DNA of 64,000 nucleotides from positions 1,612,001 to 1,676,000 of the forward strand of contig NZ_CP076668.1 in assembly GCF_018968705.1 (NCBI RefSeq). The letters run 5' to 3'. How positions within the stretch are numbered: position 1 is the stretch's first letter; each line of letters opens with the position of its first letter. A program made the translations under genes and the position numbers. Origin of the DNA: Pseudomonas lijiangensis. GTDB lineage: Bacteria; Pseudomonadota; Gammaproteobacteria; Pseudomonadales; Pseudomonadaceae. Under the pieces are notes generated by a model. It searched no databases, was not told the origin of the DNA, and saw only the letters and a list, made by a program, of their open reading frames with translations. Shown in pieces: positions 551-1,853 of the stretch.

Positions 551-685
551 GCAGTCCGAAAGGAAGCTGCCGCCTGGCATCTTCCCTTTCCCTTGAGTGA
601 AATTTCCTAGAAAATCCCGACCGCTTGTATGTGTCGATGCGGGGATTTAAGGTGCGGCGTCGCTGCAAAATCAGCGGCCGGGTTT
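551..685 (+). repeat. Conserved leader of BRO/C4 unit, copy A
   Basis: This 135-base block recurs at 1567-1701 with about three substitutions. Homology begins abruptly at GCAGTCC in both copies, which marks the 5' edge of the duplicated unit. It holds a short hairpin, CGCTG-caaaat-CAGCG (661-676), and AT-rich stretches that could carry the promoter, but no -35/-10 pair is convincing. It has no credible coding frame. The high conservation suggests it holds the promoter and start of the transcript that carries the C4-type RNA and the BRO gene. Confidence 0.8.
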
Positions 686-708
686 AGCGATCCGAATCCC
701 AAGGCACA
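684..708 (+). promoter_or_regulatory. Upstream C4 target sites b1 and a1, copy A
   Basis: TTAGCGA (684-690) is the exact complement of the C4 loop TCGCTAA at 815-821. CCCAAGGCACA (698-708) pairs with TGTGCC-T-TTGGG of the other C4 loop (797-808) with one bulged base. The order b then a is what antiparallel pairing with a' then b' requires. In phages P1 and P7 the equivalent sites are called a1/b1. Confidence 0.75.
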
Positions 709-725
709 GCAGTGCTACACAACCT

Positions 726-752
726 GCTTCAAGCGAGCTTTATGCTTGAGGC
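726..752 (+). other. Hairpin preceding C4-type RNA, copy A
   Basis: GCTTCAAGC (726-734) pairs with GCTTGAGGC (744-752) with one G-U pair and a 9-base loop. Copy B has a different sequence that folds to an equivalent hairpin (1741-1764), so the structure rather than the sequence is kept. There is no U-tract, so it is not a typical intrinsic terminator. It could shape RNA processing or attenuation. Confidence 0.55.
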
Positions 753-760
753 ATGCGTTA

Positions 761-838
761 TGGCGGCTGTGCGTCGGAGACCTTCGGGTCTGCCGGTGTG
801 CCTTTGGGGCCGGTTCGCTAACCGTCGTACAGCCGCCA
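761..838 (+). ncRNA. C4-type antisense RNA, copy A
   Basis: An outer stem pairs TGGCGGCTGTGCG (761-773) with CGTACAGCCGCCA (826-838), 13 pairs with one G-U. It encloses a UUCG tetraloop hairpin (AGACC-TTCG-GGTCT, 778-791, extended by CGG/CCG), a purine/pyrimidine loop CCTTTGGGG (801-809) and a second hairpin GGTT-CGCT-AACC (812-823). Loop a' (801-809) is the perfect complement of CCCCAAAGG at 875-883, which includes the ribosome-binding site of the BRO gene. Loop b' (815-821) complements 850-856 and 684-690. This architecture and position match the C4 antisense RNA of phages P1/P7, where RNase P trims the 5' end and the RNA blocks antirepressor synthesis. Function here is inferred from the complementarity. 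The exact ends are approximate. Confidence 0.85.
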
Positions 839-849
839 CCCACATGCGT

Positions 850-885
850 TTAGCGACGTATCGGGTGGTTAATTCCCCAAAGGAG
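850..885 (+). promoter_or_regulatory. C4 target sites b2 and a2 over the BRO ribosome-binding site, copy A
   Basis: TTAGCGA (850-856) complements C4 loop b'. CCCCAAAGG (875-883) complements loop a' over 9 bases and overlaps the Shine-Dalgarno AAAGGAG (879-885), which lies 10 bases before the ATG at 896. Pairing would hide the ribosome-binding site. Confidence 0.8.
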
Positions 886-895
886 TTTTACCCCC

Positions 896-1435
896 ATGGA
901 CCTTCCATACCCTTCATCACCCTGCACCGATCACTTCGAACCCACGATCTTCATCCGCCACCACCGCATGCTGCGCGCCGTGATGCTGGACGCCCAGGTC
1001 TGGTTTCCCCTGCAGGACCTGGCCCGGTTAATGGGCAAGCAACTGGACGAACGCGCCACCCTCAAGCTCGATATCGACCAGCGCCGCACCGTCTGGCTGC
1101 TGACCCACGGCAACTGGGAAAAATGCCTGATGATCAGCGAGTCGGGCGTCTTCGCGATGCTTGTTCATCACTACGTTCCTGAAAACCGCGCACTGCGCCG
1201 CTGGCTGGCGCAGGAAGTATTGCCGGCTCTGGATGTTCGTCATGCAGAAGTAGCCGATCAGCCATTGCTGTACCAGATGCGCTGGCAGGGCAATGCCCTG
1301 AGTTCGCTGCAATGGCGTGGGGAGTTGTGGGTGAAATTGCGGGATCTGCCGGAGCTGGTTCAGGTGCAGGCTGGTGTTGTGACCGGGTCCTGGTGGCGAC
1401 GGTTGATGGGGCGGCGGCGGTCGTTTTTGGCTTGA
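896..1435 (+). CDS. BRO-N domain protein (phage antirepressor-like), copy A
   Basis: This 179-residue protein carries a BRO-N domain over about residues 15-110, the DNA-binding module of many phage antirepressors. The start is ATG at 896 after AAAGGAG. The second half is arginine/tryptophan-rich, ends in RRRSFLA and has no recognised domain, so it is a short form without the usual second (KilA-C/ANT) domain. It differs from copy B at three positions (T/I near residue 11, M/L and L/F near the C terminus). No integrase, repressor or structural phage gene lies nearby, so it is either a phage remnant or a domesticated regulator. The C4-type RNA just upstream predicts post-transcriptional repression. 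The binding target is unknown. Confidence 0.85.
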   Translation: MDLPYPSSPCTDHFEPTIFIRHHRMLRAVMLDAQVWFPLQDLARLMGKQLDERATLKLDIDQRRTVWLLTHGNWEKCLMISESGVFAMLVHHYVPENRALRRWLAQEVLPALDVRHAEVADQPLLYQMRWQGNALSSLQWRGELWVKLRDLPELVQVQAGVVTGSWWRRLMGRRRSFLA

Positions 1436-1566
1436 TGAGGTGGGCGTGGCGATCAATCGGATTGGTTGATCGTCAGGCCATATGAGCATAAATGCTTGTT
1501 CATGGTTTTCGTCAGAGTGTCGAGCCTCCCGGAAAGTGATGTATGCCTTGATTGGTCGTGTTCCAC

Positions 1567-1701
1567 GCAGTCCACAAGGAAGCTGCCGCCTGGCATCTTC
1601 CCTTTCCCTTGAGTGAAATTTCCTAGAAAATCCCGACCGCTTGTATGTGTCGATTCGGGGATTTAAGGTGCGGCGTCGCTGCAAAATCAGCGGCCGGGTT
1701 T
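1567..1701 (+). repeat. Conserved leader of BRO/C4 unit, copy B
   Basis: This is the second copy of the block at 551-685, almost identical. The 131 bases before it (1436-1566) are spacer with no credible gene and no similarity to the sequence before copy A. The duplicated unit therefore runs from here to the BRO stop codon at 2449. Confidence 0.8.
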
Positions 1702-1723
1702 GACGACCTGATCCTGCACTCGC
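1700..1723 (+). promoter_or_regulatory. Upstream C4 target sites b1 and a1, copy B
   Basis: TTGACGA (1700-1706) is the exact complement of the copy B loop TCGTCAA (1830-1836). CACTCGC (1717-1723) is the exact complement of GCGAGTG (1814-1820). Both differ from copy A, and each matches its own RNA. Confidence 0.75.
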
Positions 1724-1740
1724 AATCGCGCTCCATGCTG

Positions 1741-1764
1741 CCTCATGCCATTTCATGCATGAGG
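1741..1764 (+). other. Hairpin preceding C4-type RNA, copy B
   Basis: CCTCATG (1741-1747) pairs with CATGAGG (1758-1764). It sits at the same place as the copy A hairpin at 726-752 but has a different sequence. Confidence 0.55.
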
Positions 1765-1772
1765 TTGCTTCA

Positions 1773-1853
1773 TGGCGGCTGTGCGTCGGAGACCTTCGGG
1801 TCTGCCGGTGTGCGCGAGTGAAGGCCGGTTCGTCAACCTTCGCACAGCTGCCA
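1773..1853 (+). ncRNA. C4-type antisense RNA, copy B
   Basis: The outer stem pairs TGGCGGCTGTGCG (1773-1785) with CGCACAGCTGCCA (1841-1853), 13 pairs with the single G-U at a different position from copy A. The tetraloop hairpin (GACC-TTCG-GGTC) is unchanged. The two address loops differ: a' contains GCGAGTG (1814-1820) and b' is TCGTCAA (1830-1836). b' complements TTGACGA both upstream (1700-1706) and downstream (1864-1870). a' complements the upstream a1 site perfectly, but I found only weak pairing (a GTGA core plus G-U pairs) with the region before the ribosome-binding site at 1884-1899. The fold is the same as copy A with a rewired specificity. Confidence 0.82.

Follow-up and report, generated by a model that had tools for sequence, protein, structure and literature searches.

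Two tandem C4-type antisense RNA modules ahead of Bro-N genes in Pseudomonas lijiangensis are one locus of a genus-wide family whose address words change in concert

Near the start of the window, a stretch of 64,000 nucleotides (nt) from Pseudomonas lijiangensis (contig NZ_CP076668.1, positions 1,612,001–1,676,000), lie two consecutive units (approximately 553–1435 and 1576–2449), here called copies A and B. Each comprises a promoter-like stretch, a b1-a1 region, a C4 antisense RNA fold, a b2-a2 region and a gene for a 179-amino-acid (aa) Bro-N protein. From sequence comparison, it is quite probable that the units are phage-C4-type modules for silencing one gene each, with C4 acting on its own gene as in P1 and P7. 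The pair, which a first-pass annotation of this DNA took for a domesticated or orphan regulatory module, is not a singular tandem case but one locus of a C4 family found throughout the genus. As for the family as a whole, we hold it about evenly balanced whether antisense switches insulated from one another number up to tens per chromosome in Pseudomonas. Each switch would have an RNA address of two words present at three sites, and addresses would evolve, much as allelic specificity types do, by segment exchange in the interval from promoter to gene, both of which stay fixed. The window would then show two address alleles of a single locus side by side.

Both leaders matched the Rfam covariance model of C4 (RF01695) above its gathering score of 45, and the 13-base-pair outer stem and UUCG hairpin described in the first-pass annotation were present in both copies in the predicted folding. 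The coordinates and complementarities given there were correct to the base. In copy A, positions 801–809 (CCTTTGGGG), part of the a' loop of C4, are the exact complement of 875–883 (CCCCAAAGG), which runs into the Shine-Dalgarno sequence AGGAG (881–885), and the b' word at 815–821 (TCGCTAA), read from the sequence, is exactly complementary to both 850–856 and 684–690. Beyond that list, a1 of copy A was also seen to pair with the a' loop (8 nt), and in both copies b' pairs with b1 and with b2 over 7 of 7 nt. The joint pattern b2-N18-a2, with at most two mismatches allowed, occurred once in the window, at the expected place (0.02 expected). The proposed order of b1-a1, C4, b2-a2 and gene is backed by the Rfam match and by the word statistics given below. 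The features of the two copies are:

625–653, + strand: putative promoter-like TTGTAT-17-TAAGGT of copy A, proposed from the sequence
684–690, + strand: b1 word of copy A, TTAGCGA, exact complement of b' at 815–821
701–708, + strand: a1 site of copy A, AAGGCACA, 8-nt complement of the a' loop; a'/a1b1 region −18.7 kcal/mol
756–843, + strand: C4 antisense RNA of copy A, RF01695, 78.4 bits, E 1.2e-13
797–809, + strand: a' loop of copy A, including 801–809, the complement of 875–883
815–821, + strand: b' word of copy A, TCGCTAA, single-stranded in the predicted fold, mean unpaired 0.98
850–856, + strand: b2 word of copy A, TTAGCGA, exact complement of b'
875–883, + strand: a2 site of copy A, 9-nt complement of a', extending into the Shine-Dalgarno sequence
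896–1435, + strand: Bro-N gene of copy A, 179 aa, PF02498, 39.2 bits, cut-off 25.6
1641–1669, + strand: putative promoter-like TTGTAT-17-TAAGGT of copy B, aligned with that of copy A
1700–1706, + strand: b1 word of copy B, TTGACGA, exact complement of b' at 1830–1836
1717–1723, + strand: a1 site of copy B, CACTCGC, 7-nt complement of the a' loop; a'/a1b1 region −19.7 kcal/mol
1768–1858, + strand: C4 antisense RNA of copy B, RF01695, 68.2 bits, E 3.9e-11
1809–1824, + strand: a' loop of copy B, matching its own a2 region over 4 nt only
1830–1836, + strand: b' word of copy B, TCGTCAA, from the sequence and the word analysis
1864–1870, + strand: b2 word of copy B, TTGACGA, exact complement of b'
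1910–2449, + strand: Bro-N gene of copy B, 179 aa, PF02498, 39.2 bits, identical to copy A at 529 of 540 bases

In the mechanism that we propose, the leader would be transcribed with b1-a1, the C4 hairpin RNA and b2-a2 ahead of the start codon, and C4 would be released from it by processing, as in P1 and P7. The C4 of P1 is processed by RNase P. The b' word would then bind b2 and the a' loop the ribosome-binding site of its own gene, blocking translation; silencing is argued to be translational because a' pairs with the ribosome-binding site and b' with b2. The b1-a1 region would be a second target, which may damp C4 as a decoy or, where a terminator stands between a1 and C4, may end transcription early upon pairing. 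Within a genome, most modules have a word pair not shared with the others, and so little cross-talk is expected between switches.

The c4 of P1 and P7 belongs to the same RNA family and has the same target layout as the window modules; it likewise precedes a gene of the antirepressor type (in the window by family match to PF02498) and pairs around the ribosome-binding site. The immI operon of P1 has the order c4-icd-ant (PMC8198154), and C4 is described as underlying P1/P7 heteroimmunity (PMC12197685). The P1/P7-like arrangement claimed at first sight held for the identity of C4 and the layout of its targets but not for the rest of the operon, as the Bro-N start lies 52 nt (copy A) and 51 nt (copy B) past C4 with no icd frame between. 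Unlike in P1, no icd frame is present in the window, and the cargo is Bro-N alone or, in other modules, DUF6124, SP52 or SP87 (the last two being our own labels). Unlike those of P1 and P7, moreover, the C4s of Pseudomonas are chromosomal, with up to tens per genome and different addresses.

C4 RNAs above the cut-off were found in 137 of the 149 genomes sampled from the genus, that of P. lijiangensis included, in a survey that scored at most 27 matches per genome; 42 were counted above the cut-off in genome G096. In a class-wide sample of 274 genomes, C4 was present in 17 besides P. lijiangensis, at one to six copies each. The upstream element c4-a1b1 (RF03163) was detected in 53 of 59 genomes at E 0.001, in 48 of them above the cut-off, with up to 48 matches in one. 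Although the C4 family is already known, and C4 and c4-a1b1 are listed for proteobacteria and phages in an earlier survey (Weinberg 2010, PMC2864571), the setting is unusual, namely a multi-copy chromosomal address set. The portions of the literature that were searched do not describe a multi-copy chromosomal C4 family in Pseudomonas.

The P. lijiangensis genome, which was examined in full, has 30 C4 RNAs above the cut-off. A start codon (set by hand) lies 44–56 nt downstream of C4 in 25 of these modules, and their cargo, read by eye and classed by Pfam for eight and by clustering for the rest, consists of 16 DUF6124-type genes, two cut-short DUF6124-like genes, six Bro-N genes and one SP87 gene. 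In 24 of the 25, b' matches both b1 and b2 over at least 7 nt. In all of 20,000 permutations, pairing with the module's own targets, over both loops and both the upstream and downstream sites, exceeded pairing with those of other modules. A seventh Bro-N relative of this genome (4380862–4381299; L016, L033) was also noted, in front of which the profile search did not find C4.

Across the genus, a profile search of 213 loci (26 without a match) yielded 175 distinct modules, in which the gene after C4 was of the DUF6124/DUF3077 type in 85, SP52 in 30, Bro-N in 16, SP87 in 12, another gene in 13 and none in 19. SP52 is a 52-aa family (e.g., L040, 1386–1587 and downstream) and SP87 a second unnamed family of approximately 87 aa (L177, L105, L047 and others); representatives of both, when scanned, matched no Pfam or NCBIfam family above the cut-off. 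In the 143 modules for which a family gene was found (those with another gene or none being excluded), b' matched both b1 and b2 over at least 7 nt in 130, only b1 in seven, only b2 in three and neither in three. An a2 match of at least 6 nt was detected in 121 of the 143, at a median position of −17 to −9 from the start, and contained AGG, GGA or GAG in 94 of the 121. None of 5,000 permutations of the a' loops reached the mean that these modules showed with their own a2 or a1.

Word patterns could be parsed in 186 of 203 modules, the other 17 being dropped. These contained 26 b words, of which 21 were seen perfect at both sites, and 159 of the 186 modules were perfect at both. Within single genomes, the module's own target was among the best for 23 of 25 C4s in P. 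lijiangensis and uniquely the best for 20; for G096, of whose 43 C4 matches 30 were taken in, the figures were 26 of 28 and 22. Among 53 disjoint sister pairs with different b words, b1 and b2 were both perfect in both members in 39, only b1 in nine, only b2 in one and neither in four; in 72 pairs with different a' loops, the own a2 fitted better in 62, equally well in nine and worse in one. The permutations and the sister pairs together rule out chance complementarity, and this comparative evidence shows that the words change in concert at three sites. On trees built without the address sites, from modules with perfect words only, the minimum number of word changes was 13 among 27 SP52, eight among 39 Bro-N and 25 among 65 DUF6124 modules, counts that are rough because the sequences are short and recombination occurs.

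Several points weigh against the silencing and insulation proposed here. The a' loop of copy B matches its own a2 region over 4 nt only, at −7.4 kcal/mol. Cofolding of whole C4 molecules with their targets fails to separate own from other targets (difference in free energy between the two, −2.9 to −3.1), and specificity therefore rests on the words and the comparative evidence rather than on computed binding energies of the full RNA. No promoter in the window exceeded the threshold of a consensus scan, for which reason the TTGTAT-17-TAAGGT of both copies is given above as putative, and the best promoter scores in 174 leaders were not better than those in shuffled leaders. Among the 175 modules, 19 lack an open reading frame (ORF) of at least 45 aa starting 30–75 nt after C4, and five of the 30 C4s of P. 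lijiangensis are orphans with no downstream gene. Finally, modules outside this genome were taken mainly from the best-scoring C4 matches, so genus-wide match rates may be too high.

Of the two working C4 switches originally proposed, both are C4 by score, but copy B has no a2 pairing at the Shine-Dalgarno sequence and equal working of the two cannot be assumed. Copy A pairs well at a1 and a2, copy B at a1 but hardly at a2 (in the fold calculation the b' string of copy B was taken one base late, at 1831–1837). Copy A should thus be tightly silenced, and copy B less so.

Alignment of the two copies swings between approximately 98% and 51–61% identity. Identical bases number 128 of 131 in the promoter and 5' hairpin region (553–683) and 39 of 41 in the 5' part of C4, but 37 of 61 in the a1 spacer (with four gaps) and 20 of 39 from b2 up to the start codon. 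The Bro-N genes differ by 0.007 nonsynonymous (dN) and 0.065 synonymous (dS) substitutions per site. The two b words are set apart by two changes, which recur at b1, b' and b2 alike and thus leave the pairing intact at every site. At the same locus, Pseudomonas capsici (L214) has one unit, with address B; its leader is 99.7% identical over 334 bases and it is flanked by RraA-like, polyketide-cyclase-like and major facilitator superfamily (MFS) genes at 91–94% identity. Pseudomonas cichorii (L215) also has one unit, with address A and a leader 97% identical; a polyketide-cyclase-like gene lies 3.7 kb downstream, and no RraA-like gene was found within 10.5 kb.

Because addresses B and A occur singly in these two species, the tandem pair is most readily understood as two address alleles brought together on a single chromosome while their genes stayed alike; it is from such comparisons that we infer the way in which it arose. 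Plain duplication followed by drift was considered and is less likely, given that each address stands alone at the locus in a related species and that identity between A and B alternates. The C4-b2 stretch of copy B (1770–1887) is 88% identical to an orphan C4 at genome position 1515541, approximately 98 kb away. The search for an empty site beside the polyketide-cyclase-like gene covered 1.5-kb flanks in L247–L256, in which no C4 was seen.

A similar pattern was observed elsewhere in the genus. In 12 pairs with switched words and a gene identity of at least 0.85, the a1 and b2 spacers had a median identity of 0.72 and the promoter and gene 0.91. The spacers of 24 pairs whose words were equal reached 0.94, on a par with the gene; these pairs came from the best 40 of 55 equal-word pairs, by a similarity ranking that included the leader. 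Stepwise word change was rejected as a general rule, since the spacers had diverged where the word was switched and the promoter and gene had remained alike. Individual pairs vary, however: L206/L065 retains an a1 spacer at 0.94, and in L227/L229 only the b word has changed, at all three sites, so point changes also occur. Segment exchange is the simplest account of these sequence comparisons, and the words would then switch together, probably mostly by recombination that replaces the address segments between a conserved promoter and gene.

It is unlikely that the modules are decaying remnants of prophage immunity with no present function. Such an origin would be in keeping with the orphan C4s and cut-short genes, and with the similar modules seen in viral contigs, four of them in the order C4, SP52 and Bro-N. 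The median ratios dN/dS, however, were 0.16 for SP52, 0.24 for Bro-N and 0.18 for DUF6124 (0.37 for SP87, from two pairs), which shows, at the level of codon comparison, purifying selection on the first three. The words have also stayed matched at three sites through many switches, and related species hold orthologous modules with the same addresses. The genome of P. lijiangensis gave five integrase matches, all at least 8.8 kb from any C4, and 27 of its 30 C4s lie more than 15 kb from every one of them, the only C4s within that distance being two at 193 kb and that at 831 kb. The orphan C4s are at positions 193621, 327492, 336368, 1515541 and 5635673. In a' and b', that at 336368 is identical to the intact module at 332576, and the address of that at 1515541 almost equals the one of a paralogue that is intact in L217/L218.

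Viral stretches of IMG/VR gave 72 profile matches, from which 71 modules were parsed (68 of 70 loci, 67 distinct). Both b words were present in 68 of the 71, and among the 58 with an ORF the cargo was SP52 in 29 and of the DUF6124/DUF3077 type in 23. In four loci (L277, L288, L299 and L320), SP52 stands between C4 and a Bro-N relative, where P1 has icd; the relative in L277, the one for which Pfam was run, scored 89.8 bits. With one DUF6124 query, none of the 50,697 records of a phage collection and three of 72,556 plasmids were matched, and the zero alone would mislead because IMG/VR contigs do contain DUF6124 relatives. These contigs support a phage origin of the modules but do not prove it, as they may include host flanks.

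The chromosomal C4s could also be imagined as an immunity bank directed at incoming phages, whose matching genes they would silence, given the heteroimmunity that C4 confers in P1/P7 (PMC12197685), the shared architecture of the viral modules, and six viral modules with one of the two exact addresses of the L163 and L102 modules. Only six of the 71 viral targets, however, were matched by any chromosomal C4 (b over 7 nt and a over at least 8), compared with 10–14 after random re-pairing of a and b and four with a reversed a'. Because of this comparison, a present role as an immunity bank seems improbable.

A more serious alternative, which we regard as possible although somewhat doubtful, is that transcription is the main level at which C4 acts, in the manner of the P4 CI RNA, with binding at a1b1 favoring a terminator between a1 and C4 and the module thereby restricting its own transcript. 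CI is described as a processed antisense RNA with targets on both sides (PMC4825925). Like the window C4s, CI with seqA and seqC is one antisense RNA with targets up- and downstream of itself; it acts by transcription termination, whereas no intrinsic terminator was found between a1b1 and C4 in either window copy. Elsewhere, a terminator of this type (a hairpin of −8 kcal/mol or lower with a T-run, between b1 and C4) was present in all 27 SP52 modules, 15 of 71 DUF6124 modules, eight of 15 modules with no ORF and three of seven others, against 0–5% of shuffles by family and two of 27 on the reverse strand in SP52. Among Bro-N modules, on the other hand, it was found in one of 16 and none of 28, and in none of 11 SP87 modules.

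Over 54 modules, the predicted probability of the terminator was 0.37 with a1b1 free and 0.74 with it blocked (37 up and four down by more than 0.1), while a control block of similar length gave 0.41, with 19 up. The effect was clearer in SP52 (0.35 to 0.74, control 0.32) than in DUF6124, in which the control block also lifted the probability (0.38 free, 0.67 blocked, 0.56 control), and only partial leaders were folded in this calculation. The leaders of relatives also match c4-a1b1 (RF03163) and isrK (RF01394), at 63.3 and 59.6 bits in L206 and 58.0 and 53.9 bits in L040, and STnc1160 has been proposed as possibly acting on the isrK terminator (PMC4825925). The window copies remain below the gathering scores, with 41.0 and 43.7 bits against 46.7 for c4-a1b1 (E 3e-7 and 5e-8) and 39.9 and 34.3 bits against 50 for isrK, and their leaders differ from both families in having no terminator. 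Next to translational silencing, attenuation may therefore be a second arm in those modules in which the folding model places a terminator between a1 and C4.

The isrK likeness (below the cut-off in the window) also brings to mind the published IsrK model (PMC4825925), in which a short a1b1 RNA would activate, opening the downstream start by binding the long transcript. We consider this the least credible of the alternatives, as the a' loop mostly sits on the ribosome-binding site and the window leaders have no terminator that would yield a short RNA.

In number, the modules resemble type I toxin-antitoxin families, in which a small gene and the antisense RNA directed at it recur many times on the chromosome. 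In contrast to those families, C4 shares both strand and leader with its target, and no toxicity is known. If silencing by C4 is as proposed, a single antisense scaffold would exist within one genus in a very large number of natural variants whose partners are known. The rules of RNA address recognition and insulation could then be tested directly, candidate orthogonal regulators would be at hand, and DUF6124, DUF3077 and two unnamed small protein families would be placed under a phage-type immunity RNA.

The window begins inside an RraA-like gene (3–539), and the two units are followed by genes for a polyketide-cyclase-like protein, an MFS transporter, a PH-domain protein, a chemotaxis receptor and a lactonase, in that order. 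That the surroundings are free of phage genes, as first noted, was borne out for the eight neighbor proteins in the first 9 kb, seven of which matched ordinary Pfam families and one none, and by the distance of approximately 296 kb to the nearest of the five integrase matches. Prophage content of the genome was judged by two families only, integrase and one portal protein family, for which the search gave no match. A tRNA was present in four of 20 regions checked for a tRNA insertion site. In AlphaFold models, the Bro-N protein had a predicted local distance difference test score (pLDDT) of 80, and DUF6124 formed a two-helix hairpin (pLDDT 91); the Bro-N profile gave a single match among sequences of solved structures, at E 0.64 only. 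Downstream of copy B there is an inverted repeat with 23-base arms (2561–2583 and 2625–2647), which we take to resemble a Pseudomonas intergenic repeat.

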